Origin: Bacteroidaceae bacterium | GTDB lineage: Bacteria; Bacteroidota; Bacteroidia; Bacteroidales; Bacteroidaceae | DNA: 45,133 bases | Direction: 5' to 3' | Assembly (NCBI GenBank): GCA_017468985.1 | Contig: JAFUHF010000067.1 | Span: 1 to 45,133 of the forward strand | In this document: piece by piece, positions 1 to 32,889 of the stretch | How the letters are laid out: each line of letters opens with the position of its first letter | Position numbering within the stretch: position 1 is the stretch's first letter | The notes under the pieces: model-generated | Told to the model about the DNA's origin: nothing | The model's input: the letters and a program-made list of their open reading frames with translations, nothing else | Database searches by the model: none | Program-made: the position numbers and the translations under genes

Positions 1-40
1 AAACAATGTGAACTATGCCGTAGAATTGTAACAGTCCACA

Positions 41-715
41 GTGAAGTTGGCTGCAGATGCAGAAACGACAATGGAGGCTAACAGAAATGGTATCATCGGT
101 GATTCCAATCAAACGGATATTGCTGGAAATGCTATGCAGGTAACTGGTATTCTGATTGGTGGTCAGCCTCATGAGGTGGGTTGGAAGATGATTCAGGAAG
201 GTTCTGATGCAAGTGTAACTTTCTCTGATGTAATCTATGATAAAGATGTTCAGTACGGTTCTGCTTTAACGACATCTCAATCAGACGCTAACTATACCAT
301 GGTATTTGATAATTATACCAACAAACTCACTCCAACAACAGAGCAGCCTGATGTGTTGTTCGCTTTGGAGATTAAGAACGGTAACCAAGACTTCTACGGA
401 GCAAAGAATATGATTCCTAAGAACAGCACGTTCTACATCGTTGGTAAGCTGAGCCTCAGTACAGCAGTCGGTGATATAACGAATTATCCAGCCGGGTATC
501 GTATTCCATATGTAAATGCAGGTTCTGAAACAACAACAACAATCAAGCGTGTGTTCATTCAAGACCATACCACGGTGGCCAACATCACCATTTCAAAGGA
601 TGCTCTGAAAGGAGCTTACAGCACCATTCCTGATCTGATTTCAACTCAGGTAGTGTTTGGTCTGTCAGTTGATCTGAAGTGGAAGCAGGGTCTGACGTTC
701 AGTCCTGTAATCTAA
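41..715 (+). CDS. Mfa1/FimA-type fimbrillin, C-terminal part
   Basis: Structural subunit of a Bacteroidales surface fimbria. The product ends in a strand pair, GLSVDLKWKQGLTFSPVI, that is typical of the fimbrillin C-terminus. Only about 224 residues are open, against roughly 300-450 for the family, and no lipoprotein signal is present. The annotated start is a GTG without a Shine-Dalgarno sequence. The same frame is also open at positions 2-28 and reads NNVNYAVEL before a TAA at 29-31, so this is probably the 3' part of a longer gene broken by a nonsense change (CAA to TAA would restore it) or by a sequencing error. Composition is clearly A+T-richer than the next gene: 38% G+C at 301-360 against 63% at 1021-1080. 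The family call is firm; whether the gene is functional is open. Confidence 0.72.
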   Translation: MKLAADAETTMEANRNGIIGDSNQTDIAGNAMQVTGILIGGQPHEVGWKMIQEGSDASVTFSDVIYDKDVQYGSALTTSQSDANYTMVFDNYTNKLTPTTEQPDVLFALEIKNGNQDFYGAKNMIPKNSTFYIVGKLSLSTAVGDITNYPAGYRIPYVNAGSETTTTIKRVFIQDHTTVANITISKDALKGAYSTIPDLISTQVVFGLSVDLKWKQGLTFSPVI

Positions 716-1896: not shown

Positions 1897-2997
1897 ATGA
1901 CGATGAAAACGAGAAGGTTTAAAACACTCCTTAAGCGGCAATTACTCCCTGCCATGAGGCCTGGGGCAATGTTGCTGATTGTGGCCCTTCTCTTTCCGGC
2001 GTGCATCAACGACAACGATGAGCCCACTCCCAGCACCCGTACGGTGACGATGCCCATCGTGCTGCGCATTCACAGCGGACAGGTGATGACCAAGTCAAAG
2101 GGCGACCCGGGTATCACCGAAACGTTCGCCCTGCCCGAATATGCCTACCTCTTTGTGTACCTGGAACGCGGCGGCGCAGTTTACAAAACCTATTACACTC
2201 CCTTTGCCCTTGACCCCGAACTCTGGGTGAGCGACACGAACGACGGGCGCTACATCACTACCGATGACCCCATCTACCGCTACACCGGCAACCTGAACTT
2301 CCAGATTGCACCGTCCGACGAGTGGACCTCGGGCCGCGTCTATGTGGCCGTGTCGAAACAGGAACTCCATCTGACCTGTAACGGCACCGACCTTTCCACC
2401 CTCTCCGACCCCGAAACCCTGCCTATGCAGACCCTCGAAAGCCTGCAAGGGGTGACGTTTACGGTCGACACCGACGTTAAAGACCGCCTTCAAGACATCT
2501 ACTCCACGCCCTATGACTACAACGTGAGCGGCAACTACTATGGCATGCTTGACCGCACCGATGCCAACCGCCCACGTGCCGACCTGCTGCTCTATCACGT
2601 GGCAGCAAAGGTGGATCTCATGTGGAACGTGGACGCTACCGTGCAGTCCGAACTGCGCATTTCCGAGCTCACGCTCCTCGATCTCTTTGGCGACGAAGCC
2701 TATCTGTTTCGTCCCATGGAGAACGCTGAGCCTGCTACCACTTACCAGAAAACCCTCTTCAATACCTATACCGGCGACGACGTGGGTAGCCAATGGTATG
2801 GCCGCCGCTACATCTACGCCATTCCTTACTATAACGCCAGCAGCCATTTCCCCGTGAGCACGGCATGGCAGTTCAATGGCGATGCCTCCGGCAGCTACAA
2901 GGTCATCTTCGACAACGCCAAGCCCTCGCAAAATGCAGGCTTCACGCCCTGGGTGCGCGGCGACGTGACGTTTAAGATGAAGCCGGGTTACAATTAA
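1897..2997 (+). CDS. Fimbria-associated lipoprotein (Mfa/FimC-E-like accessory subunit)
   Basis: The signal peptide ends in a lipobox-like FPAC (Cys36), followed by the acidic/proline tether INDNDEPTPSTR. The long n-region (RRFKTLLKRQ) leaves open a start at the second Met (1903). The mature part of about 330 residues has the beta-rich look of fimbrillin accessory proteins, including AAKVDLMWNVD near residue 240, but lacks an obvious fimbrillin C-terminal strand. It sits 12 bp after the anchor gene and 8 bp before the giant gene, so one transcript is likely. By analogy with FimC-E and Mfa3-4 it could be a minor or adaptor subunit linking the shaft to the downstream giant protein. This is inferred from position, and the family is only moderately certain. 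Confidence 0.65.
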   Translation: MTMKTRRFKTLLKRQLLPAMRPGAMLLIVALLFPACINDNDEPTPSTRTVTMPIVLRIHSGQVMTKSKGDPGITETFALPEYAYLFVYLERGGAVYKTYYTPFALDPELWVSDTNDGRYITTDDPIYRYTGNLNFQIAPSDEWTSGRVYVAVSKQELHLTCNGTDLSTLSDPETLPMQTLESLQGVTFTVDTDVKDRLQDIYSTPYDYNVSGNYYGMLDRTDANRPRADLLLYHVAAKVDLMWNVDATVQSELRISELTLLDLFGDEAYLFRPMENAEPATTYQKTLFNTYTGDDVGSQWYGRRYIYAIPYYNASSHFPVSTAWQFNGDASGSYKVIFDNAKPSQNAGFTPWVRGDVTFKMKPGYN

Positions 2998-3005
2998 ATC
3001 GCAAG

Positions 3006-6000
3006 ATGAATCACGGAAACCTACACCACGCAATAAGACTCCTGGTCTTCAGCCTGATGCTCTGCATGGGCTGGACGGAAAGCCTTGCCGACGACGTGCA
3101 GACCTACGAGGTGATGTACGTAGACCAGGAGAATGGTGCCTTTGCCAATGGCGGTACCAGCTGGAGCGATGCCAAGAACAATCTCCAGACAGCCATTGAC
3201 GAGCTTTACGACAAGATTAAGACCGAAGGCGCTACCACGGTGGGCTACGTATTCGTGGCCAAAGGCACTTACACCCCCACGCGTCGCTCCACCGACGAGT
3301 CTGACGGATCTATGTTCAACACCTCGTTCCGTATTCCTGAGCGCATCTACGTGTTTGGCGGCTTCAATGGCGACGAAACGGCCGATGCTCCGCAAAACCT
3401 GCCGGGTAAGCGCATCATGGCGAGAATCAACGATGCCGGTGAGGAAGTGAGGGCCGTCACCTACGACGAGGAGCAAGCCTTCATTGCGCAGGATAACATC
3501 GACGGTGCCGTACGCCGCTGGAACTTCTACTATAAGACCATCCTTTCGGGCAACCACTCCGTGGTGACCACCTCGTTCACCTACGAGCCTTCGCGTGGCC
3601 TCTACCATACTACCTTCCCCCTGAACTCCTACCACGTGGTGTGGTTTGGCACAAACGGGGAGATAGGCGACACGGGCCACTATCAGCCCTTGGAAAATGA
3701 AGCCGCCATTGATGGTTGCACCATTCAGGAAGGCAACGCCTCGTCGCGCGTTACTTCCGGCCACGACCATACGGGCTACGGCGGCGGTGTCTACATGGTG
3801 GGCAATTCGCTGCTCCGAAACTGCGTGGTGGAACGCTGCGCGGCCACCCTTCGCGGCGGTGGTGTCTACATGGACGGTGGCGGCACCATGGAGCGCTGCT
3901 ACGTACATACGTGTCAGGCCTCCGGCATAGGCGTGGTGCAGGGCTACGGCGGTGCTGTGTGCATTGACTATCTGGGCAGTGTGCAGCACAGCTACATCCT
4001 TCAGAGTGCGGCGCGCATAGGTGGCGGTTTGGCCATCTGCCACGTGCTGAGCGAATATCCGTTTGCACTGGTGGGCGACGGAAAGCAGGCTTCCATGTAC
4101 GAACCCCATGCCATTGCCACGTTGATTGCTAACTGTACGAGCAATGCCGAGGGTGGCGGTGTGTATCTTGACGAGGGCGGAACGCTCAACCACTGCACCG
4201 TGGTGAAGAATAAGTGTACCGGCCCCGACGTTGTTTACTACGGACGTCGTCATGGTCGTACGGGTGGCATCTACGTGCGCAACTGCGGCACCATCTACAA
4301 CAGTGTGGCCTGGGGCAACGAGTCGCCCGTGAACAACGACGTGCAGTTTGGTTGCAGCAAGACGAGCGACGATGCTTCCTACAAGATAGAAATTTATCAC
4401 TCCGCCTTCTCCAAGCACGACATTACCGACTGGAGCAACACCCGAAAGACCAACGTGGTGTCGCTTACCAATGCCAACTATCCCACGGCTAACGATTACG
4501 TGGGCAATTTCCCCATGTTCTACCATCCCACTGATACCATCGTGGTGGCAGGTGGAGAGAACATTTCGGCCGGCATCATGCACTACAATGGCGTGGTGCG
4601 TCCCGACGAGGTGGAGCCCGGCCAGCCTTATCAGAAAGTCTACAACTGGCATCCCATTGCTGCTTCGGCTCTCCGTATGAAGGCCGTACAGGTGACGAGT
4701 GCCATCAGCGGTATTGCAGATGAAATATCACATGCCCATACCACGATTGACGTGGTGGGCCGCCAGTTTGAGGCCATCAGTTCTTGCGGAGCCTTGGCTC
4801 ACAGCTACCGCACCATTCAGGCCGTGCTGCTGCCTTCGCTGGAGACAACCGACGCTGCCGGCACCCTGATTCCCACCATCTTCGTTGATCCGCAACGCTC
4901 CGTCTACGGTACCGACAACAGCGACGATGTTACCGGCTATGAGGACGACCAGGCCGTAGGCCAGTCGTGGACCCATCCGGCCGGCAACCTGCCCGACGCC
5001 ATCAAGTTCTTCAAGGACCGCATCGGTCAGAAGGTAGCCCTGCAGAGCGACGGCTCCGTGGAGTATCAGTATACGTTCCGCGAAGGCGAACTCTTCAACG
5101 CCGACGGCACGGCAGCCACCTCTCTCACTCACGACTATGTGCAGGTGTGCGTAAAGGAAGGCACGTTCAACACCGCAGGTACGGGTTCCTATATCGGCTC
5201 TCAGGCGCGCACCGCGTCCATCCGTCCTGCTTCCAACATGCGCCTTTATGGCGGATTTTCCTCCTCGTTTACGGGCCAGACCATCGACGGGCGCAACCAG
5301 CGCACTACGCCCACGCGTGTCAATGCCAACGTGCTGGGCGATACGTATGAAAACAATGCCGCCCACGTGTTTGCACTGGTCAACGTGAAGAACGTGGTGG
5401 TCGACGGTTTCCGTCTGTCGTCCGGTAATGCCAATCTGAGTGCCGACTCGTATGCGCCGGAGGGTACCGAGATCACCTTCGGCGGCGGCGTGCTGGTCAA
5501 CAACTCCACCATTGCGCAAGACGCGCGCATCAACATGACGGGCAACATCCTGCGCAATTCCGTAATCTCCAACTGTTCTGCCCCGAGGGGTGCAGCCATC
5601 TATGTCAACGGCCAGTATCCGCGTGCCGATGGCAACCGTTGCGCGGCAGAGCTTACTGTGGTCAACACCATCATGCGTAACTCCACGGCTGGCGACATGC
5701 GCCACCCTGACGGCACGCCCTGGGCTGACCGCTACACAGTGGAGAAGACCGAGGGAGGCGTGGTGACGGCCAACGGCAATGCCCACATCTGGCTGCGCAA
5801 CTGCGACATTGTGAATAACTGCGGCTACGCCCTCAAGTCCACGGCCGACAACTCCGATGGCACGTATGGCAAGCTGGAGATCTATAATTCCATCATCTTC
5901 TCCAACGGTCTGAAAATTGCAAGCGACCGCCGCACCCTCTCGGACGACGGAAGCGTGAGCTGCCTGTGGACGGAAAACATCACGGGCAACTATCTCTATA

Positions 6001-9000
6001 CCGACTATGACGCTGATGGCGGCCAGCGTCCCTCCCACTTGGGTAGCGACGTGAAGTACTTCAATCTGCTTACGCGCAACAAGAACGGCGTGAACGGTGA
6101 CTGCGAAACCAATCCCAAGGCCGTTACGACGGCTACCAACTACGACGATATCAAGATGTTGCGCTATCCGTACTTCATCAATCCATCACGCAATGTGGGC
6201 CACTCTACGGGAGCCGACCAGCCCATGTATGGCGGCGTGGTGAACTACGAGCCGCTCAACATGAACCCCCTCGTAAACGGTGCTAACGACGATATGGAGA
6301 GCGGATCCGACATCATTTCCACTGGTTCCTCTCTGGCACAACGGTCGAAGACTATCAGCTATGATTCCGGTCTGCGTAGCCGCATCTACGGCGGTGCCCC
6401 CGATGCCGGAGCCATTGAGAACACGCGTCTGCCGAAAGTAGGAGCCGTGATCTACGTCACGCCCGACGGTGCCGGCAAGCGCGACGGCAGCTCGTGGAGC
6501 AATGCCATAGCCGGCAACACCATCTATGCCCTGAACGGTGCTGCGGCCGCCGGCACCGATGCCCTTGACGAAGCCAACGGTACCACACGCATCATCAATG
6601 CCACCGGTGACGGCACGGCCACTACCGGCGCAGCCAACGGGGTACTGACTACTGACTGGCGTTATTGCGGAGGTTTTGCAGAGAGCTACATGTCGGGAAA
6701 GACTTTAGGCGGAAAGACACAAACCACTGTCACCAAGACATGGACTACAGAGTCTAACGTATATACTGGTGGGTCTGAGGACAGAACCGATATACTGAAT
6801 GAAAGTTATGCCGAAAGTTCTGCTGTCAAAGAAACGCAGGCGGGCAGTGAAGACGGCAGTTTTACGAAAGGTTGGCAGGCAGATACGCGCTTTCCTTATG
6901 GTGAGTTGTCAGGCAATTCGCGTTCCTTCTGGAGGTCAAAGGGCAATAGCAGTCCGGTACCTGAATGGTGGAGTAAAGCCACTTTCAATAAGAACGACGT
7001 CGTTTCCAATCCCAACGATGCCAGCGAAACAGTTACAGGCTTGCTGCCCGAAGGTACGCTACCCAATGATCAGGGGCAAACATTCCTGGAATATATTACT
7101 GCCGCCGACACCCCCGAAAGCGATAGGGTGATCATAAAAAATGAACGAACAGAAAATTATGTAGGTGGATTGCAGTATGCTGTAGAGTTGGCCACCGCTT
7201 ATAATAAGCAGGGATCCACTGAGCCGCGTATTGAGGGGGTTGAAGCCAAGCAGGTGTGGGTGAGCAACGGAAAATATACCGACTATAAAGGTTTCATTAT
7301 GCGTGACAATACCGTGGTGATGGGCAGTTTTCCCGCCGTGAAGGATGGAGTTGTGCTGACGCCCGGCGAAACCGAACGTCAGGCGTTGATGAGTGATCCC
7401 GACGAGGTGGTTGACATTCCCAAGGCTCTGATGGCTGCAGACCTCAATCCCGTAGACTATGAAACCATACTGCAGATCTCCGATGTGAATCCGCGCTTGA
7501 GCAACATCGCACTCAATACCGCTGCCGTCAACTCCTGGGACAACGACTACAAAATCGTGGAGGCCACCAACACCACAAAGTTTGAATACAAAGCGCACAA
7601 CATCACCCATTATTACAAGTGGGTGGACGAAGGCGAGAACAATGTGTCATCCCTTTATGTCCAGAACTCAAAAGACAATAAAACGGATCGACTAAACCAA
7701 AATGGTTACAAAGTTTCGATTTTCGGAACAGCTTCGGGCAACATCGATAATTGGCATCTTTGGATTCCAGAACAGAATTCTGCTTACCGTATAGGAGCAT
7801 ACACTGATAATGGCGGAACCATCTATGATGCCGATAATAACAGAGTAGATTCACATTCAGGAAACCGATTCCATCTTCGTGACGGCAGTCTTACAGGATT
7901 AGAGCTCTGGCAAACGATGAAGAATGTGGAAGCAGGGAAATACAGATTAACCATTGACGTTGGGGCCTTCTATTACGATGACTATACCAACAAGAATAAC
8001 AACACGGGCAATGTCAATACCGGCGTAACGATTTATGTGATTGACGCAGATGGCAACGTAGTGTATCAGGAAGACAATGTGTTTTACTACACTGGCCGAA
8101 ACAACATGAAGCGCCTCACCGTCACCTTTGAGCAACCTGAATCTGAAAAAGGAGAACTCACCGTGAAGATTGTAGTAGGGCATGGTCGTGACAAAGACAA
8201 TAATGAGATTGATGACGATTCCAGTGTTGCCTTTGCTAATAATCCCTATCGTCGTGAGCTTAATGTAGGCTACGTCTATCTTTATAAGGTGGTTGAGAGC
8301 CAGTATGTGGTCGACGAAAGCAAGGGAGGTGGCAGTGGGACGGTAGAGCAAACTGTCAACAAGGCCGATGTTACCAAGGAGGCCGATATCGTAGAAACTA
8401 AGACCAGCTACATTGCATCGAAAGAGCGCCAGATACTTCGTAAGCGCGTATTGCAGATGCCCGACGTGACTAATCCCGTATGGACATTGGGCGGCTACTT
8501 AGGCGATCCCAGCACCAATGAAACAGCGCAGATGGGAAACAACGATTTCTTGTCTCACAGCGAGCGCATGGCAGCCGGTTCGGGCCGTGAAGCCAACGAT
8601 GTGGACAGCAGGCGTGCTCCCGATCCCAACTATCAAACTTACGACAATGTGGTTTGGGACGGTTTCACCATTCGTCATGGTTTTCTGTATAATCTCTGTT
8701 TGGTGCATGGTGGCGGCGCCGGTGTGAGCATGTATGAAGGTGCCCATTTGAGAAACTGCGTGATCATTGACAATTTCTCTGGCGGTAAGCGCAACAAGGG
8801 TGGAGGTGTGTTTGTAGATGGTGCCACAGCTACCATCGAGGGATGTTTCATCATTAGCAACACCTCAACTCACGGTGCCAAGAACGAGCAGGGACAGATT
8901 TTTGGCGGTGGCCTCTTCTTGTATGAAGGAACGTGTTTCAATACCCTTATTGCCAATAACTATGCCCATGGCTTTGGTGGCGGTCTGGGACTCTGTGTAG

Positions 9001-12000
9001 GTAAATTCTATAACAACACACTGTCTTATAACACCAGCGGTAACCGAAACGGCGGACTCCGCATTGCCGACAAGGCACGTTCATCCATTTTGATGGCAAA
9101 CTCCATCATCTATGGAAATGATGGAGCCGCTATCAGTATGACCTCAACGGCCACCTTCTCTCCCTTTATTCATTGCTACGTGCAGTCGGTGGATTCCATC
9201 TCGAACGGTGGTATTCTGAATGCCATCCGTTCTGCATCCGAGCGAAAGGGTGGTGTGGGCGTAGGCAATACTTTCCTGAACGGTCCGGATTATGGAGGTA
9301 TGCTTTCTAAAGAGAATACGCCCTTCGAGAAGGATATCGATGCTGCTGGCAACTATACCGGCGAAGCTAAGACCTACAATGACTTCCGTCTGCGCATCAT
9401 GGAAAGCAATGCAGGATGTATCAATACTGGTGCCGACGAAGGCATGCTGGGTATAAGCCTGCCCAATAATGACGTGGCCTTTGCCGAACGTGTGCAGGAT
9501 TGTAAGATAGACATCGGAGCCTACGAATACGACGGTTCGAAGGATATTGAGCCACAGCTCATCCGTCGCATTGACGAGGACGGGCGCTTAGTGAGAGAAG
9601 CTATTTTCTACGTAAACCAGAACGGAACCGGAACGGCTACGGCCGCATCGCCCGAGGAGGCTGCCTGTGTGAGCAAGCTGCAATTGGTGTTCGACGCCGC
9701 CGGACGCTGGAAGTATGCCGCTCGCCACTTGGGAGCCACGGGGAGCATCCTTACGAACTTCAACGCTGACGAGAACCTGATGCTGAGCAAGGAGTTAAAT
9801 CAAGGCATTGGCATCAAGGCGGCGGACAATGTGACCATGCCCGACGGTACGGTGCTGGGCGACATCACCATGGACAGCCTCAAGACGTTCACCGTCATCG
9901 TGAAAATGGCCGGCGACTATACCCAAACGAAGACCAACTTCAGCTATTCGCCCACGCATGTGCCCCTGAAACTGACTGACGTGGAAGAAAACCTGCTGGA
10001 ATATTCGCTGACCATTCCTCACGGCGTGCAGGTGAAGGGTGGCTACAGCGCCGAGGAGGTGAAGGTAACCACCAATGGCACGACCGTAACCGTGCCGGCA
10101 TATGACGAAAGCTCGCGCGACGTGATAGGCTATCCTACGCGGCTGAGCGGCAAGGTGAGTAATGCCTCCACGGGAGCCACGGGTCAGGTGTTCCATGTGG
10201 TGACGTTCACCAATCACCTGTTCCGCCCAGGCATGGAGCGCAGTCTCTATAAGAACAGCGACGACGAGACCTTGCTGTACACCTTGAAGGAACTCTCGGA
10301 TGCCGACGTGGTGGGTGCCGACAGTGCGCGCCACCGTGCCGTGCTCGACGGCCTGTTCATCATAGACGGCGATGCCAACGGAACGGACGAAGACTTTCGC
10401 AGAGGCGGTGCCGCCGTGGTGCCTTCCTATGCCCACGTGAAGAACTGCATCATCAAGGACAACACCGCTACGCGCTACGGCGGCGGACTCTACTTGCAGC
10501 CGGGAGCCCTCGTGAGCGGATCAATTATTAAGGACAATTCGGCACAGTATGGCGGTGGTCTGTATGTGGAAGCCCCCTCCGTCTCGGCCAAAAACAGCGA
10601 GCAAACCGATGACGAATATCAGAAAGCGCAGCGCGTGGCCGTGGAGCAGCAGTATACGCGAATCTATACGTCGACCGTGGTCTTCAACGATGCTACGGTG
10701 TCGGGCGGTGGTATCTATTTCGACTCCTCTTATCCCAACCTGCTCTGTAACTCCAGCGCCTTCTGGCAGAACACGGCCAACGACTTTGCCAATGTGGCCG
10801 GAAACTTCAATGCACAGACCAACTCCAAGAACGAGAACATCTATGCTTTCACTTGTTGTGGCGTTGAGTCGCGCCGTATGCCCGGTGTGAACAACCTGCT
10901 GCTGCCTGTGATTGACGGTGAGGGTGTGCGCTGGGACCACCACGACCGCTTTGAAGACGGTTTGCTGAGCGGAACCATACTCTATGTGCCCATCACGCTG
11001 TCGTCCATCCTGGCACGTTCCGGCATGACCTACGATGCCTACGAAACCGTGATGAAAGAATATCCCACGATGGAGCTGAGAGATGTAGCCGGTCTGGCAC
11101 GCATGGAGCAGAACAAGGAGCAGCAAATCTCGTGGGACAATACCGGCGGAGACGTAGTGATTTCGCCCGTGAGCTTCAAGAAGGTCAAGAAGAAGAACGA
11201 CTTCATAGAGATGGGAGCACGCGTACTGAACAAATCGTTTGAGGTTCAGGTGGATGCTTCCAATGTGATGCGCCGTATCTTCGTGGCCAAGACCGAGAGC
11301 CTGCCCGAGCCGGCCGCTTTGGAGTTGTTGCAGGAGAATGAGAGCACCGAACCGGTGGCACTGATGTATAAGCAGATGGGAAGTTCGTTTGCCAATCCGT
11401 TCCACCGCTTGGGCGATGCCTTTGAATACATCAAGGCCGTGCGCAGCTACGAAGGCCTGAAAGACACCTATAAGGATGTGCGCTTTGAGGTCTTTGTGGG
11501 CGAAGGCGAGTTCCGTCCCTTCCACGATGCCTATGGGCAGCAGGGTTCGGCGCGTACCAATACCTTTGTCATTCCCGAAGCCGTGACGGTGGTGGGCGGT
11601 GTGGACAACACTATCAAGACCGCCGGCGACAACCATACCTACTGTCAGGCCGGATATGGCGAGAGCGACGATGCCGACGTGCAGGTGCCCATCACGATCA
11701 ACGGTGTGGACCGCGGAGTCATGACGCTCTATGCGGCCAAGACGCAAACCATACGCGACAAGCGCGAAGTCTACGACTATAACGGTAACAACGTGTATGA
11801 ACCGTGGGAGTTGAAGAAGCTCTCGAAGGTGATGGGCGACGCCGTGGATGCCAACTCCGCCGGTAGCACCAATATCTACCACCTGATCACCATCATGTCG
11901 GACAAGGAGCGTGTAGGCGAACTGCCCACGCGCAAGGACAACGGCGGAAACGTGCTGGAATCCCTGTCGAGCGAAACGACGCAGGCCAAACTGCTGGCCA

Positions 12001-15000
12001 ATATGGAGCAGGAGAGTCTGGAGAGCCGCGATGCTCGAACCATCATTCTGGACGGACTGCAAATCACTGGTGGATATGCCAACAACATCAACCCCGAACA
12101 TTCTCTGGAAGCTCGCGACAAGCCCGAAACGAGTGACGACCTGCAGCAGCTGACCGACGAGAGCGACGAGGCTTTCATGGAGCGCTGCAAGCGCCGAGCC
12201 ACGCAGCTCACCTACTTCCGCGGCGGCGGCATACTGGTGGACGGCAACTGGGACGACCACTTCCTGAGAAAGTCGTCGTTGCCCGAGGTGCTTGGTGTGC
12301 CCAAGCGCGACATTCCGCTCATCGTGACACATTGCGAATTCCAGAACAATATGGCTGGAAACGGCGGTGCCATCTACAGTAACGGAACCCTCTTCATCAT
12401 GAGTTCGCACTTTACGCAGAACCACAGCTCCGGCCCCATCAACGAAGACGACCGCAACTTCATCCCATGGACGGCAGGAGGAGCCATAGCTACGAACTAC
12501 GAGTGCAACGTGTGGAACTCCCTGTTCGACAACAACGAGGCGGAGCGCGGTTTGCCCATCTATGAAAGGGTGCAGAATGAAGCCGGCATCACCAACACCG
12601 AAGCCCGTCAGGGTAGCGGCGGTGTGATTTCGAGCTCCGAAACCAGCACCGTGCGTATGTCGAATTGCGACTTGGTGCGCAACAGGGCACAGCAGTTCCC
12701 TGCCATCTACAACTTCCTTGACAACTCCCTGCGCCAGTATGGCAGCTACGACCAGAGCGGCGAACCTACCTATCCTTATGGCCGTGGACGTCACTATGCC
12801 TTAAACACCATTTTCTGGGGCAACGACGTGCCCGACGACGTGAAGGACCTGGCTCCGGCATTGGCCGTGCCTCTGATCGGCGGCAAGACCGACCATCGTC
12901 GACGCGACATGGTGGCCAACTTCGGTCCCGACATGGACCAGGAAATGCTCTACTTCTGCGCCTACGAGCAGGGTAAGGCCCGTTATGCCTCGCTGCCTGT
13001 AGATCTTGCTGATCAGGAAAGTGCCAAGATGTCCGACATCGTAGATGCCTCCGGCAATAAGGTCACCATTACGGCGCTAAAGGATGGTAGCTTCTCGCGT
13101 GAGCGTGCCTTCGGCACTTATAAGCGCAACAGCGATGGCAACCTGGTAACCGGTACGGACAGTATCTATAACCACAATCAGCTGCTCAACTCCAACAACC
13201 TGGCTTCGGACGGACCATCGTTCGTGCAGCCGTCGATCGAAGCCGGTATTGCCGGATACATGCAGAATGCCGACTGGCTCGTAGACCGTCTGAACGTATT
13301 GATAGACAATGGCTGGAGCTACCTGGAGCAAGAGGTGACGCAGCCCTCGCTGACCTCCACCAAGCTGATCACCAACTTTTTCAGCAAAGACGGAACCTCC
13401 ATCTATGCCAATGGCAACATGACGGAGCTTGACGAGGCCGACGGAACAGCCGACGGCAAGCTGAAGACAAAGTCGGGCGGCGTGGAAACCACGTTCAACC
13501 TGATTGACTCCCCAGCCACCAACAGCTCTACGGACGGACTGAAGGGCAACGGCTTCTACAACCAGCATTCGGGCGGAGAGAGCAGAGCAACCTATAACCG
13601 ATTCAAGAGCTTGGGCTTCAGTGACCTGCTGCCTATGGCTGATGAAAGCTACATGACCTATACCCGTGAGAACGAAATAGGCACTTACGACATGCGCCGT
13701 ATTTCCACCTATCCCAAGATGGGGCAGCAGCACGTGTTTATCGACATTGGCGTGTACGAATACCAGTATGTGCAGCTTAATCCGTTAGGCAACGAAACGG
13801 ACGTGATCTGGGTAGGACCCAGCGAGCGTGGTACGCACGACGGAAGCACGAGCGCCAACGCTACGACGAACCTTCAGGATGCCATCGAAATACTGCTGCT
13901 GAGCCGCAACGGCCACGACAAGGTGGTGAAACTCATTGGCGGAAAGAATCCTGACGGCACGGAATATGAATACAGTCCTTTGCGTGTATCGTCAAACAAC
14001 AAACTGGCGTTCTTCGTGAAAATGCCGCGTTCCGACGACGGTGTGAGCCTGACGGGCGGTATTGCTTCGAGTGAAGACGCCCGAGGCATCAAGAGCCTGA
14101 CCATCCGCGGAGGCTACAGCGACAATACGAACGACCATACCACTGACGGTGAAGCCGTGCGCGATGCCGAACTGTTTCCGTCGCGCATCGTGATGAAGCC
14201 CATCAGCAGCAACACCACACTGGACCAGATGGACCATCTCTTCATCGTGGAAGATGCGCAGCAAAAGGAAACCTACGGCACGATGGTGTCTAACCGCGTA
14301 ACGAAGTTTGGGAACGCTCCCGTGCCCATCATCGTGGAGGGCTTGAAGTTCATCAATACCTACGCCAGCAACGTGGACGAAAAGGGTGGCGCTGCCATCT
14401 ACTACGAAACGCAGAATTTCTGGGAAAGCGAAAGCTCGCTGGGTGGCGGTGTGCTGAAACCCTTGGAGAGCGGTGAAGCTAAGTTTACGGTGAAGAACTG
14501 CGAATTTACGCTGAACGGAGCCAGTGCGGACGTATCGGCCGTGGCCATTGAAGAAGGTGGCGGCGAGGCATTGGTGGTGAATTCGCTGTTCCATAGCAAC
14601 ACGGGTGCGCCCATAGTGGGCAAGAATACGAAGGTGGTGAACTCCACGTTTGCCCTGAACGGCGGCCACCTGACGCTGAGCGATGCGGTAGAAACCTATG
14701 CCGGTGGTACCACCTCGGGAACTTCGCTCTACTCCGAGCTCCAAAACTCCATCATCTGGAAGGACAACGGCGGCACAGGCACGCAATTCGAAGGCGTGAC
14801 CGTAGACGCCAAGAAGCGCGTAACGCACAACGCCGTTTCGGGTGAAACGTTTACCGACGAGGAAGATGACTATCGCAACATCAGCCTGAGCGACGTGAAT
14901 ACCGATATCTTCAGGGGCCCCAACTTTGTGGACCCGAAGGAAACCTTTGCCGCTGGCATGACCGACAAGGAGAAGCAGGCTCAGATGCTGACGCGCGACT

Positions 15001-18000
15001 TCCACGTGAATCCTTCGGCCCGTATCATCAATGGCGCCGACATTGCCACCTACAAGAAGCTGGTGCCTTACTTCCCCTCATATCCCAAATATGAGAACAA
15101 CTATCCCGACACGGAAAAGCAGGGAACCTATTCAGAGGTGCGCACCGTGAAGGACATTCATGACAACGACCTCAGCTACTACTTCCACTCTGCCCAGCGT
15201 GGCGACATGCAGACGCTCGCCGACGAATACCTGAAAGGCATTGCCACTTACGAAAAGAACGGCTTGACCTTGAACGATTACACCGAATATGAGCTGTCGG
15301 GCAAGGCGCGCTGGCAGGCCGACGGCATGGAGCGCGGAGCCTACGAGAGTACGGCGCGCTTTGAGCGTGTGCTCTACGTCTATGGCGAAGGCTACAACGA
15401 CAAGAACGGCGTGGACTGGGAGAATGCCTATCCCATCTCGAACATACAGAGTGCCATTGACATGGCCAGCATCTATTCCGCCACCCATGAGGATGCTCAC
15501 GGTGAGCACGAACGGGCTTACGTATTCGTGAAGGGCGACAATGCCACGGCTGGCGGCGTGACGCTGCGAGACGGTGTGTCAGTGTATGGCAGTGTGCCGC
15601 GCGCCGACTTCAGCGAAGAGGCTAAGAAGGACATTGACGACAATAACGACGAGATCATGGACCGCTACAGCGACGCTTCGCTCATGGCTTACATCAACAA
15701 GGTGAAGGCAGTGCGCGGCGGTGTGGCCACGCGAGGTGCCACGGTGAGCATCGTGCCCTCCGTGAAGTCCGACGTGAATGATACGGAATTCAAGACCGGT
15801 TTCCTGCTCGATGGCTTCAAGATTACGGCCAGCGGTGAGCAGATAGAACCCGTGGTGCAGCTCACGCAGAAAGGAAGCATAGTGGCCGGAAGCATAGTTT
15901 CAGACATTACGATGGCCGTGGGACAACCCGTGGTGAAGATTGACAAGGGACTGCTTTACAACACGCTGCTCTATGGTAACACGGCCGATGCCGTGGTGAA
16001 CGTAGGGGCAAATGGCCGCGTGCTGAACTGTACGGCCGTGGCTGCCCATGACGGCGAACTGGCCATCAAGGGAACAACGGCAGGAAGCGTGGTGAATACG
16101 GTGACCTACAACGAAGCCACATCGATGCTGGCACGCGAGGGCGAAGGCGTGTTTACGCAGTGCAATACCAAGACCAGTGCACCCTTCGCTCCCTATCTGC
16201 GCGAAGGCAATGCCTATACGCAGACGCTGCCCACGTATCTGACCAGCCATGCTCCGTACTACTACCAGCTGCACGAAGCATCGGCCGCCATCAACGGTGG
16301 AAACAACAACGCCAAGTCGCTGGCCACGCTGAGCGATTGGACGGAGTGGTTCGACTTTGACCATGACCGCGATCTGCTGGGCAATCCCAGAAAGCTGGGC
16401 GGAACGGTGGACCTCGGAGCCTTTGAAACTTGGAAGGTGGCCGACGAAAAGGCCGTGGAAGCTACGAATGTGACGAATACGGCCAACGAAGTGAATGGCA
16501 GTGGCGACGTGACGAAGTATGCCTACGTGGACAACTATGGTGGCCATCTCTATCCGCATGACGGCAGCGTGGTCTACATCGGGAAGGAGGCCAACCTGGT
16601 GCTCCATGCCGACGACAAGATGACGGTGCGCCCGGGCTACCTGCTGGTGAAGGAAGGCGGTTCGCTCTACGGCCAGGGCAACACGGTACAGGCTGGCTAT
16701 GTGGCTGTGGAGAAACAGCCGGCAGTGGGCGAACAGTATCGCCTCGTGAGTTTGCCATACGCCCACGATTTGCAGAATGCCATCTCCGTAAGCTACGACG
16801 AGGAAAGCGATGCCTTGACAGAGGTGAACGTGAAGGATGACTTTGCATCTCCTTATATATATAACGGTAGTACGACAGACGGCCGCGCAGGCTGGCGCTA
16901 CAACTTCCAGGAGGAGAACTCCACCTGCTGGCAATCAGCTGCGACGAGTCGCGAAGCCTTGGTGGGCTGGCTCATGGAGCGCAACGATGCCGCAACGGCC
17001 GACACGAAGCCCGTTCGCCTCACCGGATGGGGAGCCAGTCAGGGCGTATATGCCTACGAAGAAAACGGTGACGCCAAGACGGTGACGCTGACGCAATATA
17101 ACCAGACCGAGATCAACGGCAGTACGGGACAGCCAGAGTTTACCAAGCTGGAAGACATGGGCTGGAACCTCAGAGGTCTGCCCTTCCTGATCAGCCAGTA
17201 TGAAACGTCGCCTGTGGACGACCACACCTATCAGATGCAAGTGCCGCACGTGATCTACACCATGGGTGGCGACGGTACCTATGAGAAGATGGCAGACAAG
17301 ATCTACTCCGCCCAGTCGTGGGACAGCGGAGCTACGCTCACGTTGGGTGAAGGCTTCTTTACGCAGACGGCCATCATCGGCGATGCAGAAACCCTGACCT
17401 TCAAGGTGCCGCTTTACGGCGCAGCCGTGACAGCCCCCTCGAAGCCCTACGTGGGTCTACGCAGCGTGGACGGCGAAGCCGACGTGGTGGAGATACGTCC
17501 CGTGGTGGGAGCCGACAAGGATATGGAATTTGACATGGGCCGTGACGGTGTGAAGTGGCAATCGTTCAGCGAAGGGCCGACGCTCTATGTGCAGAATGCC
17601 GCTGAAACCGCCCTCTCGCTCGTGGCCGAAGCTCCTACGGAGACAGAGATACCGTTGGGTTACGGCGTGGCGAAGGAAGGAATGTACACCATAGAATTGC
17701 CCGACAAGGATGCCTATAGTGACGTGAATGGCGTATGGCTCACCGACCACGAAACGGGCGCTGTGACCAACCTGCAACAGCAGGCTTACCAGATGAAGGT
17801 GAGCAGCGCCGGCCAAAACAGCCGCCGCCTCACCATCCGCTTCGGCGGTGGGCGGCCGGAGAAGGCCACGGAAGGCAGTGCGCCCTACCGCATCTATGCC
17901 GTAGGAACCACGCTTCACATCGAAGGACTGAAAGATGGAGACCACGTGCGCATCTACACCACGGGCGGAGCTATCGTTGACAGCCACGAGGCAGACGCCT

Positions 18001-18083
18001 CCCATTACAAGAAGAACGTGCAGCCCACGGCCATCTATATAGTGAGAATCAACAATTATACGAAGTCCATCAGAGTGAAGTGA
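3006..18083 (+). CDS. Giant secreted beta-helix protein with seven modules and T9SS-like C-terminus
   Basis: 5025 residues. A Sec signal peptide (cleavage near SLA28) precedes seven modules. Each opens with a YVxxxG...G.SW..A...LQ.AI-type motif, at about residues 37, 623, 1148, 2199, 2756, 3599 and 4121. Most close with a GA.E-type motif, for example DIGAYEY, DIGVYEY, RGAYES and DLGAFE (about residue 4469). Between them are glycine-rich coils such as GYGGGVYM and LRGGGVYMDGGG, with N..A..GGG rungs typical of right-handed parallel beta-helices. Module 3 is enlarged by an A+T-richer insert (see separate entry). Residues 4470-4940 form a non-helical region. The last ~75 residues (LHIEGLKDGDHVRIYTTGG, then YIVRINNYTKSIRVK) look like a type A T9SS sorting domain. 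It follows two fimbrial lipoprotein genes at 8 bp. A surface adhesin or fimbrial tip is the likeliest role. A polysaccharide lyase or hydrolase is possible, since many beta-helices are enzymes, but no catalytic residues were identified. Confidence 0.85.
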   Translation: MNHGNLHHAIRLLVFSLMLCMGWTESLADDVQTYEVMYVDQENGAFANGGTSWSDAKNNLQTAIDELYDKIKTEGATTVGYVFVAKGTYTPTRRSTDESDGSMFNTSFRIPERIYVFGGFNGDETADAPQNLPGKRIMARINDAGEEVRAVTYDEEQAFIAQDNIDGAVRRWNFYYKTILSGNHSVVTTSFTYEPSRGLYHTTFPLNSYHVVWFGTNGEIGDTGHYQPLENEAAIDGCTIQEGNASSRVTSGHDHTGYGGGVYMVGNSLLRNCVVERCAATLRGGGVYMDGGGTMERCYVHTCQASGIGVVQGYGGAVCIDYLGSVQHSYILQSAARIGGGLAICHVLSEYPFALVGDGKQASMYEPHAIATLIANCTSNAEGGGVYLDEGGTLNHCTVVKNKCTGPDVVYYGRRHGRTGGIYVRNCGTIYNSVAWGNESPVNNDVQFGCSKTSDDASYKIEIYHSAFSKHDITDWSNTRKTNVVSLTNANYPTANDYVGNFPMFYHPTDTIVVAGGENISAGIMHYNGVVRPDEVEPGQPYQKVYNWHPIAASALRMKAVQVTSAISGIADEISHAHTTIDVVGRQFEAISSCGALAHSYRTIQAVLLPSLETTDAAGTLIPTIFVDPQRSVYGTDNSDDVTGYEDDQAVGQSWTHPAGNLPDAIKFFKDRIGQKVALQSDGSVEYQYTFREGELFNADGTAATSLTHDYVQVCVKEGTFNTAGTGSYIGSQARTASIRPASNMRLYGGFSSSFTGQTIDGRNQRTTPTRVNANVLGDTYENNAAHVFALVNVKNVVVDGFRLSSGNANLSADSYAPEGTEITFGGGVLVNNSTIAQDARINMTGNILRNSVISNCSAPRGAAIYVNGQYPRADGNRCAAELTVVNTIMRNSTAGDMRHPDGTPWADRYTVEKTEGGVVTANGNAHIWLRNCDIVNNCGYALKSTADNSDGTYGKLEIYNSIIFSNGLKIASDRRTLSDDGSVSCLWTENITGNYLYTDYDADGGQRPSHLGSDVKYFNLLTRNKNGVNGDCETNPKAVTTATNYDDIKMLRYPYFINPSRNVGHSTGADQPMYGGVVNYEPLNMNPLVNGANDDMESGSDIISTGSSLAQRSKTISYDSGLRSRIYGGAPDAGAIENTRLPKVGAVIYVTPDGAGKRDGSSWSNAIAGNTIYALNGAAAAGTDALDEANGTTRIINATGDGTATTGAANGVLTTDWRYCGGFAESYMSGKTLGGKTQTTVTKTWTTESNVYTGGSEDRTDILNESYAESSAVKETQAGSEDGSFTKGWQADTRFPYGELSGNSRSFWRSKGNSSPVPEWWSKATFNKNDVVSNPNDASETVTGLLPEGTLPNDQGQTFLEYITAADTPESDRVIIKNERTENYVGGLQYAVELATAYNKQGSTEPRIEGVEAKQVWVSNGKYTDYKGFIMRDNTVVMGSFPAVKDGVVLTPGETERQALMSDPDEVVDIPKALMAADLNPVDYETILQISDVNPRLSNIALNTAAVNSWDNDYKIVEATNTTKFEYKAHNITHYYKWVDEGENNVSSLYVQNSKDNKTDRLNQNGYKVSIFGTASGNIDNWHLWIPEQNSAYRIGAYTDNGGTIYDADNNRVDSHSGNRFHLRDGSLTGLELWQTMKNVEAGKYRLTIDVGAFYYDDYTNKNNNTGNVNTGVTIYVIDADGNVVYQEDNVFYYTGRNNMKRLTVTFEQPESEKGELTVKIVVGHGRDKDNNEIDDDSSVAFANNPYRRELNVGYVYLYKVVESQYVVDESKGGGSGTVEQTVNKADVTKEADIVETKTSYIASKERQILRKRVLQMPDVTNPVWTLGGYLGDPSTNETAQMGNNDFLSHSERMAAGSGREANDVDSRRAPDPNYQTYDNVVWDGFTIRHGFLYNLCLVHGGGAGVSMYEGAHLRNCVIIDNFSGGKRNKGGGVFVDGATATIEGCFIISNTSTHGAKNEQGQIFGGGLFLYEGTCFNTLIANNYAHGFGGGLGLCVGKFYNNTLSYNTSGNRNGGLRIADKARSSILMANSIIYGNDGAAISMTSTATFSPFIHCYVQSVDSISNGGILNAIRSASERKGGVGVGNTFLNGPDYGGMLSKENTPFEKDIDAAGNYTGEAKTYNDFRLRIMESNAGCINTGADEGMLGISLPNNDVAFAERVQDCKIDIGAYEYDGSKDIEPQLIRRIDEDGRLVREAIFYVNQNGTGTATAASPEEAACVSKLQLVFDAAGRWKYAARHLGATGSILTNFNADENLMLSKELNQGIGIKAADNVTMPDGTVLGDITMDSLKTFTVIVKMAGDYTQTKTNFSYSPTHVPLKLTDVEENLLEYSLTIPHGVQVKGGYSAEEVKVTTNGTTVTVPAYDESSRDVIGYPTRLSGKVSNASTGATGQVFHVVTFTNHLFRPGMERSLYKNSDDETLLYTLKELSDADVVGADSARHRAVLDGLFIIDGDANGTDEDFRRGGAAVVPSYAHVKNCIIKDNTATRYGGGLYLQPGALVSGSIIKDNSAQYGGGLYVEAPSVSAKNSEQTDDEYQKAQRVAVEQQYTRIYTSTVVFNDATVSGGGIYFDSSYPNLLCNSSAFWQNTANDFANVAGNFNAQTNSKNENIYAFTCCGVESRRMPGVNNLLLPVIDGEGVRWDHHDRFEDGLLSGTILYVPITLSSILARSGMTYDAYETVMKEYPTMELRDVAGLARMEQNKEQQISWDNTGGDVVISPVSFKKVKKKNDFIEMGARVLNKSFEVQVDASNVMRRIFVAKTESLPEPAALELLQENESTEPVALMYKQMGSSFANPFHRLGDAFEYIKAVRSYEGLKDTYKDVRFEVFVGEGEFRPFHDAYGQQGSARTNTFVIPEAVTVVGGVDNTIKTAGDNHTYCQAGYGESDDADVQVPITINGVDRGVMTLYAAKTQTIRDKREVYDYNGNNVYEPWELKKLSKVMGDAVDANSAGSTNIYHLITIMSDKERVGELPTRKDNGGNVLESLSSETTQAKLLANMEQESLESRDARTIILDGLQITGGYANNINPEHSLEARDKPETSDDLQQLTDESDEAFMERCKRRATQLTYFRGGGILVDGNWDDHFLRKSSLPEVLGVPKRDIPLIVTHCEFQNNMAGNGGAIYSNGTLFIMSSHFTQNHSSGPINEDDRNFIPWTAGGAIATNYECNVWNSLFDNNEAERGLPIYERVQNEAGITNTEARQGSGGVISSSETSTVRMSNCDLVRNRAQQFPAIYNFLDNSLRQYGSYDQSGEPTYPYGRGRHYALNTIFWGNDVPDDVKDLAPALAVPLIGGKTDHRRRDMVANFGPDMDQEMLYFCAYEQGKARYASLPVDLADQESAKMSDIVDASGNKVTITALKDGSFSRERAFGTYKRNSDGNLVTGTDSIYNHNQLLNSNNLASDGPSFVQPSIEAGIAGYMQNADWLVDRLNVLIDNGWSYLEQEVTQPSLTSTKLITNFFSKDGTSIYANGNMTELDEADGTADGKLKTKSGGVETTFNLIDSPATNSSTDGLKGNGFYNQHSGGESRATYNRFKSLGFSDLLPMADESYMTYTRENEIGTYDMRRISTYPKMGQQHVFIDIGVYEYQYVQLNPLGNETDVIWVGPSERGTHDGSTSANATTNLQDAIEILLLSRNGHDKVVKLIGGKNPDGTEYEYSPLRVSSNNKLAFFVKMPRSDDGVSLTGGIASSEDARGIKSLTIRGGYSDNTNDHTTDGEAVRDAELFPSRIVMKPISSNTTLDQMDHLFIVEDAQQKETYGTMVSNRVTKFGNAPVPIIVEGLKFINTYASNVDEKGGAAIYYETQNFWESESSLGGGVLKPLESGEAKFTVKNCEFTLNGASADVSAVAIEEGGGEALVVNSLFHSNTGAPIVGKNTKVVNSTFALNGGHLTLSDAVETYAGGTTSGTSLYSELQNSIIWKDNGGTGTQFEGVTVDAKKRVTHNAVSGETFTDEEDDYRNISLSDVNTDIFRGPNFVDPKETFAAGMTDKEKQAQMLTRDFHVNPSARIINGADIATYKKLVPYFPSYPKYENNYPDTEKQGTYSEVRTVKDIHDNDLSYYFHSAQRGDMQTLADEYLKGIATYEKNGLTLNDYTEYELSGKARWQADGMERGAYESTARFERVLYVYGEGYNDKNGVDWENAYPISNIQSAIDMASIYSATHEDAHGEHERAYVFVKGDNATAGGVTLRDGVSVYGSVPRADFSEEAKKDIDDNNDEIMDRYSDASLMAYINKVKAVRGGVATRGATVSIVPSVKSDVNDTEFKTGFLLDGFKITASGEQIEPVVQLTQKGSIVAGSIVSDITMAVGQPVVKIDKGLLYNTLLYGNTADAVVNVGANGRVLNCTAVAAHDGELAIKGTTAGSVVNTVTYNEATSMLAREGEGVFTQCNTKTSAPFAPYLREGNAYTQTLPTYLTSHAPYYYQLHEASAAINGGNNNAKSLATLSDWTEWFDFDHDRDLLGNPRKLGGTVDLGAFETWKVADEKAVEATNVTNTANEVNGSGDVTKYAYVDNYGGHLYPHDGSVVYIGKEANLVLHADDKMTVRPGYLLVKEGGSLYGQGNTVQAGYVAVEKQPAVGEQYRLVSLPYAHDLQNAISVSYDEESDALTEVNVKDDFASPYIYNGSTTDGRAGWRYNFQEENSTCWQSAATSREALVGWLMERNDAATADTKPVRLTGWGASQGVYAYEENGDAKTVTLTQYNQTEINGSTGQPEFTKLEDMGWNLRGLPFLISQYETSPVDDHTYQMQVPHVIYTMGGDGTYEKMADKIYSAQSWDSGATLTLGEGFFTQTAIIGDAETLTFKVPLYGAAVTAPSKPYVGLRSVDGEADVVEIRPVVGADKDMEFDMGRDGVKWQSFSEGPTLYVQNAAETALSLVAEAPTETEIPLGYGVAKEGMYTIELPDKDAYSDVNGVWLTDHETGAVTNLQQQAYQMKVSSAGQNSRRLTIRFGGGRPEKATEGSAPYRIYAVGTTLHIEGLKDGDHVRIYTTGGAIVDSHEADASHYKKNVQPTAIYIVRINNYTKSIRVK
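6660..8350 (+). other. A+T-richer insert within the giant gene, with possible carbohydrate-binding domain
   Basis: This stretch encodes about residues 1219-1782 of the giant protein. Composition drops sharply: 40% G+C in the line 7741-7800 against 68% in 5281-5340. It lacks the GGGVY-type rungs. Around residues 1578-1770 it reads as a jelly-roll-like domain (NIDNWHLWIPEQ, then GKYRLTIDVGAFYYDD, then ELTVKIVVGHG) that resembles galactose-binding or CBM-like modules. The beta-helix resumes near VWDGFTIRHGFLYN (about 8650). The boundaries are approximate and the domain call is an impression from strand pattern, not an alignment. Confidence 0.5.
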
Positions 18084-18337: not shown

Positions 18338-18690
18338 CCGTTGACGGTTTTGCACTCATGCGAACTTTTTGAAGCTTTTTCTTCGACGGTTTTGGGCCAT
18401 TCCGAACGGCACGGAGTTTTTTCTTCGATGGTTTTGCTCCATTCCGAACGGCACGGAGTTTTTCCTTCGACGGTTTTGCTCCATTCCGAACGGCGCGAAG
18501 CTTTTCCTTCGACGGTTTTGCTCCATTCCGAACGGCGCGGAGTTTTTCCTTCGACGGTTTTGCCCATTCCGAACGGCGCGAAGCTTTTCCTTCGACGGTT
18601 TTGCCCATTCCGGACGGCGCGAAGCTTTTCCTTCGACGGTTTTGCCCATACCGAACGGCGCGAAGCTTTTCCTTCGACGGTTTTGGACCA
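18338..18690. repeat. Minisatellite array 1 (41-42-bp units)
   Basis: There are eight units starting at 18371, 18413, 18455, 18497, 18539, 18580, 18621 and 18662 (the last partial), preceded by a degenerate copy from about 18338. The first four units are 42 bp. The next three are 41 bp after loss of one base in the GCTCCATT / GCCCATT segment. Each has a GAAGC or GGAGT start, then TTTTCCTTCGACGG, then CCATTCCGAACGG. Open frames across it on both strands merely reflect the near-multiple-of-three period. Length changes between units break every frame and no start signal is seen, so I do not call a gene. It sits between the terminator and the convergent priA gene. Confidence 0.9.
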
Positions 18691-32599: not shown

Positions 32600-32637
32600 G
32601 TGCTTCATTTTTGTCATGCGCTCTGTCCTGAAGCGTG

Positions 32638-32889
32638 AAAAAAGTCTTTATTCCGGCTTTCCCCCATTCGATTAGTCCGAAAAAGGTCTTTATTCTGCCT
32701 TTCCCCCATGCGATTGGTCCGAAAAAAGCCTTCATTCTGCCTTTCCCCCATTCGATTAGTCCGAAAAAGGTCTTCATTCTGCCTTTTCCCCATGCGATTG
32801 GTCCGAAAAAAGCCTTCATTCTGCCTTTCCCCCATTCGATTAGTCCGAAAAAAGCCTTCATTCCGGCTTTCGCCCATGCGATTGGTCCA
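32638..32889. repeat. Minisatellite array 2 (six 42-bp units)
   Basis: Six consecutive units of exactly 42 bp start at 32638, 32680, 32722, 32764, 32806 and 32848. Odd units carry CCCATTCGATTAGTCCG and even units CCCATGCGATTGGTCC, so the true repeat is an 84-bp dimer. Every frame stays open because 42 is a multiple of three. There is no start signal or codon logic, so I do not call a gene. Its unit length, and the minus-strand start GAATGGnGnAAA, match array 1 at 18371. Confidence 0.92.

Follow-up and report, generated by a model that had tools for sequence, protein, structure and literature searches.

Module 3 of a 5,025-residue giant protein is hypervariable and traded between genes, as observed in relatives of the giant encoded by the window (here, the whole stretch of DNA analysed, 45,133 nt, whose start is the contig's first base). 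This feature is new in this analysis, was absent from the original prediction, and is the most informative one. Judged by sequence, the giant is a member of a so far undescribed family, collinear over approximately 5,000 residues, and it is probably a T9SS-exported adhesin joined to a type V fimbria via the gene directly upstream (hereafter gene4), with a conserved modular scaffold presenting an exchangeable specificity module 3. This explanation draws on the observed gene order, co-occurrence, relatedness of the modules, variation and exchange, and on the predicted folds of gene4, of module 7 (M7) and of the tail; the giant may be incorporated into the fimbria, presumably at its tip, with the insert V of module 3 as the putative binding part.

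The fimbrial locus comprises the following features:

32–715, plus strand: C-terminal third of a stalk-type fimbrillin, truncated by the contig start
856–1884, plus strand: P0122, Mfa2/FimB-like anchor lipoprotein
1897–2997, plus strand: gene4 (P0123), fimbrillin-fold lipoprotein, likely adaptor between the fimbria and the giant
3006–18083, plus strand: giant protein P0001, 5,025 aa
18165–18198, plus strand: terminator-like hairpin 3′ of the giant gene

The giant is one ORF without an internal stop, starting 8 nt past the end of gene4, as had been claimed. The two genes upstream of it had been called fimbrial lipoprotein genes, and profiles built without the window's own proteins bear this out (E = 2.8e-120 for P0122 and 2.2e-94 for P0123), as do lipoboxes found by eye in both (LLAGC and LFPAC); P0122 scores 19.8 bits against PF08842, slightly under the cut-off of 21.2. 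The fimbrillin fragment, omitted from the original prediction and added here, has no Pfam match; it aligns (E = 5.8e-52) to positions 405–588 of a 592-position profile made from 10 fimbrillins of related loci. In the frame of this fimbrillin, a TAA at 29–31, some 30 bases into the contig, may be a genuine stop or an error at the end of the assembly. Hence, by related-locus profiles, a fimbrillin (32–715) and an Mfa2/FimB-type anchor (856–1884) lie in one cluster, as in a type V fimbrial locus. The structure model of gene4 is a type V fimbrillin; when PDB sequences were searched with profiles of the fimbrillin, the anchor, module 1 and V, nothing convincingly related emerged.

The giant is the last gene of this cluster. 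The hairpin behind it (a 13-pair stem followed by a T run) has the longest stem in the scan, which overall yielded no excess over shuffles (17 vs. 16.2), and the next long gene, PriA, lies on the opposite strand. Among 20 further scanned ORFs, those with Pfam matches resemble housekeeping, metabolic, transport or outer-membrane genes. Two intergenic regions, 18371–18685, just 3′ of the giant, and 32637–32888, hold tandem arrays with a 42-bp unit, present in 7.6 and 6 copies, respectively; the two arrays are unrelated to each other. Long antisense ORFs within the giant gene, e.g., 10521–12794 on the minus strand (the longest is 757 aa), are likely to be a side effect of codon usage.

Of 1,197 candidates scored in a search through some 5.8 billion proteins, 250 were relatives of the giant, the best 120 of which were used. 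P0002 is the window's own protein (100%), and P0003–P0011 align over 100% of the query at 44–47% identity. In an alignment of 26 members, conservation extends along the whole length, with its minimum at residues 1501–1800. A contig scan of genomes yielded 70 loci with the giant; the rumen or another herbivore gut is given as the sample in many of their record titles, the others being silent, and the host is likely a gut bacterium. The presence of the giant is patchy (17 out of 399 family-level genomes and seven out of 393 order-level genomes, the window's own being counted in both). The giant ORF has an internal stop in 12 of the 70 loci (L016, L028, L035, L040, L046, L048, L051, L067, L068, L071, L077, L082); some of these stops are inside module 3, and they could be assembly errors or real interruptions. 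A second, remote giant subfamily, of ~3.5–4 thousand residues per protein, is larger than the first: at least 2,029 proteins were scored, all significant, and among the best 120 of these one protein is named by a database in Mediterranea massiliensis.

Within the giant, the following parts are distinguished:

3006–3089, plus strand: signal peptide (by eye)
3102–4805, plus strand: module 1 (M1), residues 33–600 (family consensus and profile–profile comparison)
4857–6425, plus strand: module 2 (M2), residues 618–1140 (same evidence)
6438–9539, plus strand: module 3 (M3), residues 1145–2178, the exchanged module (profile–profile comparison, pair divergence and exchange tracts)
6573–7055, plus strand: H, variable stretch of module 3, residues ~1190–1350 (pairwise divergence)
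7473–8450, plus strand: V, hypervariable insert of module 3, residues 1490–1815 (pairwise divergence)
9588–11195, plus strand: module 4 (M4), residues 2195–2730 (family consensus and profile–profile comparison)
11247–13781, plus strand: module 5 (M5), residues 2748–3592 (same evidence)
13797–15359, plus strand: module 6 (M6), residues 3598–4118 (same evidence)
15375–16439, plus strand: module 7, residues 4124–4478 (beta-helix model; choice-of-anchor-Q match at its end)
16440–17879, plus strand: C region, residues 4479–4958, conserved and unrelated to the modules
17880–18080, plus strand: T9SS-type sorting domain, residues 4959–5025 (sequence and fold)

The claim of seven modules holds, and it leans on the family consensus, because strict patterns find only three openers (G..W..A) and five GA.E motifs in the window's own sequence, while a 106-member consensus, inspected by eye, has seven openers and seven GA.E-like closers. 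Profile–profile comparison links 15 out of 21 module pairs, the strongest being M1–M2 (E = 4.6e-27), M1–M4 (1.6e-26), M1–M5 (1.3e-23) and M6–M7 (2e-17), and the weakest M4–M6 (2.2e-7). No match was obtained by this comparison for M2–M3, M3–M5, M3–M6, M3–M7, M5–M6 and M5–M7, which are joined only via other modules; the C region matches none of the modules, and the V profile matches module 3 alone, the module containing it. Since Pfam gives almost nothing on pieces of the window's giant (at best PF02415 at E = 4.1e-05 in module 4 and PF13229 at 0.06 in module 6), the module claim rests on the profile–profile comparison and one structure model. That model, of M7 only among the modules, is a beta-helix, and, together with the profile similarity of the modules and PF13229 on some relatives, it upholds the beta-helix assignment made earlier. 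NF041518 (choice-of-anchor-Q) is matched at 16263–16430, with 23.9 bits alone and 26.4 with in-frame neighbours (cut-off 25); P0242 scores 63.5 bits against the same family. Leucine-rich repeats (PF13306) occur in nine of the best 120 listed relatives (P0020–P0032 range), in P0022 being inserted within module 1.

The tail had been described as resembling a T9SS sorting domain, which held for the family and its fold but not for the score of the window's own tail. TIGR04183 is the best match in all 10 tails tested (of 120 giants), two being above the cut-off and one equal to it; the window's own tail scores 16.3 bits, under the cut-off of 23. Its model superimposes on the RgpB CTD with rmsd 1.4 Å and has the Ig-like sorting-domain fold, and unrelated Ig-like domains score similar Z (8.3–8.7) at this tail; structure-comparison rows cover mainly M7 and the tail. 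Two PorV-family genes (422 and 181 bits) are present in the window's own genome (78.65% complete), as are eight further TIGR04183 proteins; the search for SprA_N gave no match there and was positive in 10 out of 12 other genomes of the genus. SprA was detected by PF14349, because the long NCBIfam SprA model matched nowhere, controls included. Among 26 other genomes with the giant or gene4, PorV is present in all 26, and SprA_N in 24. As T9SS is also frequent in relatives lacking the giant, its presence discriminates little and amounts to consistency rather than proof. Taking sequence and model together, the giant is presumably exported via T9SS in this organism.

The variation of module 3 was analysed in 36 disjoint pairs of giants, 70–95% identical, each protein being used once, which is not the same as phylogenetic independence. 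At residues 1501–1800, divergence is 3.4–3.6 times the pair mean, and the indel fraction is 0.13–0.15 vs. 0.00–0.02 in most windows of the alignment. Identity of V is at most 0.42 in 26 of these pairs and 0.52–0.97 in 10, with a median of 0.92 for M1; the pairs with low V identity are otherwise 70–92% identical. In five out of 36 pairs, one or both members have a short V (<210 residues). For example, the V of P0090 and that of P0096 share 36% identity, residues 200–500 of the two proteins being identical. A separate hypervariable stretch, residues 1301–2000, occurs in the second subfamily (60 disjoint pairs).

The reverse pattern is seen for L025 and L026, whose scaffolds are 72% identical and whose V are 96% identical. 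A 3,029-nt tract at 98.6% nucleotide identity, as compared to 62.7% outside it, spans residues 1153–2162 of L025, and its borders match those of module 3, the opener starting at 1148 and the closer motif at 2160. At the protein level (4,764 pairs), seven disjoint pairs have identity of at least 0.85 in module 3 and at most 0.75 in the rest; the best segment extends from 1132–1148 to 2167–2236 in four of them, and starts at 275 in three. The same test for the other modules yields five disjoint pairs for M2, four for M1, two each for M4 and M5, one each for M7 and the C region, and none for M6. L024 and L025, whose record titles denote bins of two different samples, share the same module 3. Sequence comparison thus reveals that module 3 has been exchanged between species in one piece, the borders lying at its conserved opener and closer; homologous recombination would be the likely cause of the replacement.

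An origin of V from silent cassettes or a shufflon was considered and rejected: when 10 genomes were searched with the window's V, a search that would miss V types too unlike it, six gave one match each, inside the giant, and four gave none. As these single matches are inside the giant, with none elsewhere, exchange between genomes is preferred over a silent cassette. V was also suspected by eye to be a carbohydrate-binding sandwich, and Pfam on 23 members returned no consistent family.

Hypervariability and exchange are also expected if module 3 varies in order to escape from phages, protozoa or host antibodies targeting it, rather than to set ligand specificity; the fimbrial subunits of the same loci, which also diverge faster than the scaffold, agree with such pressure. 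We hold escape as the sole driver to be somewhat unlikely, with the reservation that nothing here separates it from ligand specificity, and that both may act.

Regarding the linkage of the giant to fimbrial genes, which the original prediction had proposed to survey in relatives, the association is conserved. A single-sequence search found 67 homologs of P0123 among ORFs of the 70 loci. Two loci without room upstream being excluded, a gene4 homolog is directly upstream of the giant in 65 out of 68, further up in two, and missing in one; the median gap is 21 nt, and it does not exceed 60 nt in 49 out of 65 loci. Where the upstream sequence reaches 6.5 kb or more (56 loci), profiles detect the anchor in 44 loci, fimbrillin in 47 and OmpA/DUF3575-like genes in 44, and 40 loci show the full set of four genes; several loci without all four have further lipoprotein genes upstream which those profiles do not recognise. 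The operon order is the same in the second subfamily, where gene4 is recognised in nine out of 10 loci, and in the tenth by a broader profile, and in order-level genomes, where gene4 is recognised in five out of six. In the same 399 genomes, gene4 is found in 21 and the giant in 17, all of which are within the 21; the four extra genomes all have an adjoining beta-helix gene (two carry giants, of 4,015 and 4,047 aa; in the third, the ORF is truncated at the contig end; in the fourth, the protein has only 719 aa). The last of these, locus L140 of genome G265, has gene4, then the 719-aa beta-helix protein, then other large ORFs, possibly a short or split giant. Of long gene4 homologs (n = 66), 59 have a lipobox-like motif and 62 have Arg or Lys shortly before GDP, a candidate maturation site.

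In L103, from the same genus as the window, the fimbrial genes are in a different order and are interspersed with three near-identical ORFs of ~122–138 codons. In L066/L067, L023/L025 and further pairs, the fimbrial subunits have diverged far more quickly than the scaffold of the giant; in L066/L067, identity is 0.91 for the scaffold, 0.54 for the anchor, 0.63 for gene4, and 0.54 for fimbrillin.

A T9SS tail alone would suffice for surface display, so the giant might merely be co-expressed with the fimbriae and never incorporated. That the giant strictly adjoins, and co-occurs with, a single gene of the fimbrillin fold (gene4) speaks against this, as does Mfa5 of Porphyromonas gingivalis, which shares the position and the export signal and is at the fimbrial tip according to the consulted part of PMC7835359, making co-expression alone an unlikely reading. 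In the same source, Mfa5 is the last gene of the mfa1 operon, following fimbrillin-fold genes, and is exported by T9SS; how it is integrated into the fimbria is left open there, as far as the consulted part goes. According to the corresponding part of PMC8313007, the C-terminal half of Mfa5, with the sorting domain, is conserved, the N-terminal half differs by genotype, independently of the mfa1 genotype, and some P. gingivalis genotypes lack the von Willebrand and Ig-like N-terminal domains. The giant is similarly the last gene of a predicted fimbrial operon, with a T9SS-type tail and a variable part. In contrast to Mfa5, a protein of 1,228 residues that carries von Willebrand and Ig-like domains, it has 5,025 residues and seven related modules, its variable part is an internal module and not the N-terminal half, and Pfam found no von Willebrand or Ig-like N-terminal domains in its scanned pieces. 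The giant thus appears to work like Mfa5 but, by domain content, is not a member of Mfa5.

Other large surface proteins share some of these features. GhpA of Aureispira is likewise a giant bacterial surface protein (the titles of its PDB fragments reach residue 5009), but it forms a heptameric hook, and its structure matches to the giant's model are weak (probability 0.33 and 0.10); we know of no fimbrial genes associated with it. SprB and other T9SS gliding adhesins of Flavobacterium johnsoniae are also large T9SS-exported surface adhesins; they serve gliding, with no fimbrial operon described in the excerpts consulted of PMC11205867. The same excerpts state that Aureispira grappling hooks are secreted by T9SS (PMC11205867). 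T9SS cargo of Prevotella intermedia with pectin-lyase-type beta-helices combines beta-helix domains with a T9SS tail, as reported in the part consulted of PMC11969387, but has 1–3 domain copies, whereas the giant has seven modules over ~5,000 residues, one of them exchanged, and is accompanied by a fimbrial partner gene that is conserved. No fimbrial protein of the giant beta-helix kind came up in the open-licence literature, as far as its texts were accessible, a scope that leaves out most subscription papers and preprints.

Alternatively, the giant could act enzymatically, as a polysaccharide lyase of several modules or the like, on glycans of plants or of the host, and the fimbria would be its carrier. 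The beta-helix polysaccharide lyases PL6 and PL9, however, match at the fold level only, with 4–16% identity, and no CAZyme-type Pfam or NCBIfam match was found on the pieces of the window's giant, which makes an enzyme very improbable. That the module 3 pattern is an artefact of metagenome assembly, i.e., of chimeric contigs, is hardly credible: although most record titles of the 70 loci say MAG or uncultured, and 12 giant ORFs are interrupted, the pattern recurs in 26 out of 36 disjoint pairs and, as a hypervariable stretch, in the second subfamily, L024 and L025 agree on module 3 across samples, and the borders coincide with conserved module motifs.

The preferred explanation, a T9SS-exported adhesin on a type V fimbria, can be laid out in steps. 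By the motif, and by analogy with P. gingivalis, the products of gene4 and of the stalk fimbrillin gene would be transported as lipoproteins and trimmed at an Arg/Lys site, which would allow them to polymerise. The giant, judging from its sequence and fold, would pass Sec and then T9SS via its C-terminal domain, and gene4, given its adjacency, co-occurrence and fold, may serve as the adaptor joining the giant to the fimbria. The other modules, observed to be conserved and with a beta-helix modelled for M7 only, would form the scaffold, while H and V of module 3, as their divergence suggests, may make contact and set the specificity; module 3 itself has, by sequence, been replaced in one piece between species. 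Against this explanation we count the window's tail scoring below the TIGR04183 cut-off, the similar Z of unrelated Ig-like domains, the failure to find SprA_N in the window's own genome, the sub-threshold PF08842 score, the frequency of T9SS without the giant, L140 with its 719-aa protein, the exchange, albeit less often, of other modules, and V matching no family indicative of binding. The original observation is confirmed and its interpretation partly supported, both the sorting-domain match and the conserved linkage coming out in its favour, and the tip or stalk role then proposed for the giant being possible.

Going further, we tentatively suggest that gut and rumen Bacteroidales may build type V pili tipped by a T9SS-delivered beta-helix giant of 4,000–5,000 residues, whose central module, traded between species like a cartridge, sets the binding. 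As one protein of the second subfamily is named in Mediterranea massiliensis, a named gut species, tests in a cultured strain look possible. Within this gene of 15 kb, single modules are exchanged between species, the exchanged stretches being bordered by conserved motifs, and in relatives such swapping would allow a change of the adhesion target. If the explanation is true, Mfa5 would be generalised from the odd tip protein of one oral species to a recurring plan, in which a type V fimbria carries a T9SS-delivered, non-fimbrillin adhesin at its end, and the fimbrillin-fold gene4 would be named as the likely joint between two export routes. Two-route pilus assembly with a cassette-exchange head would then be a new design of an adhesive organelle, present in at least two subfamilies of giants.
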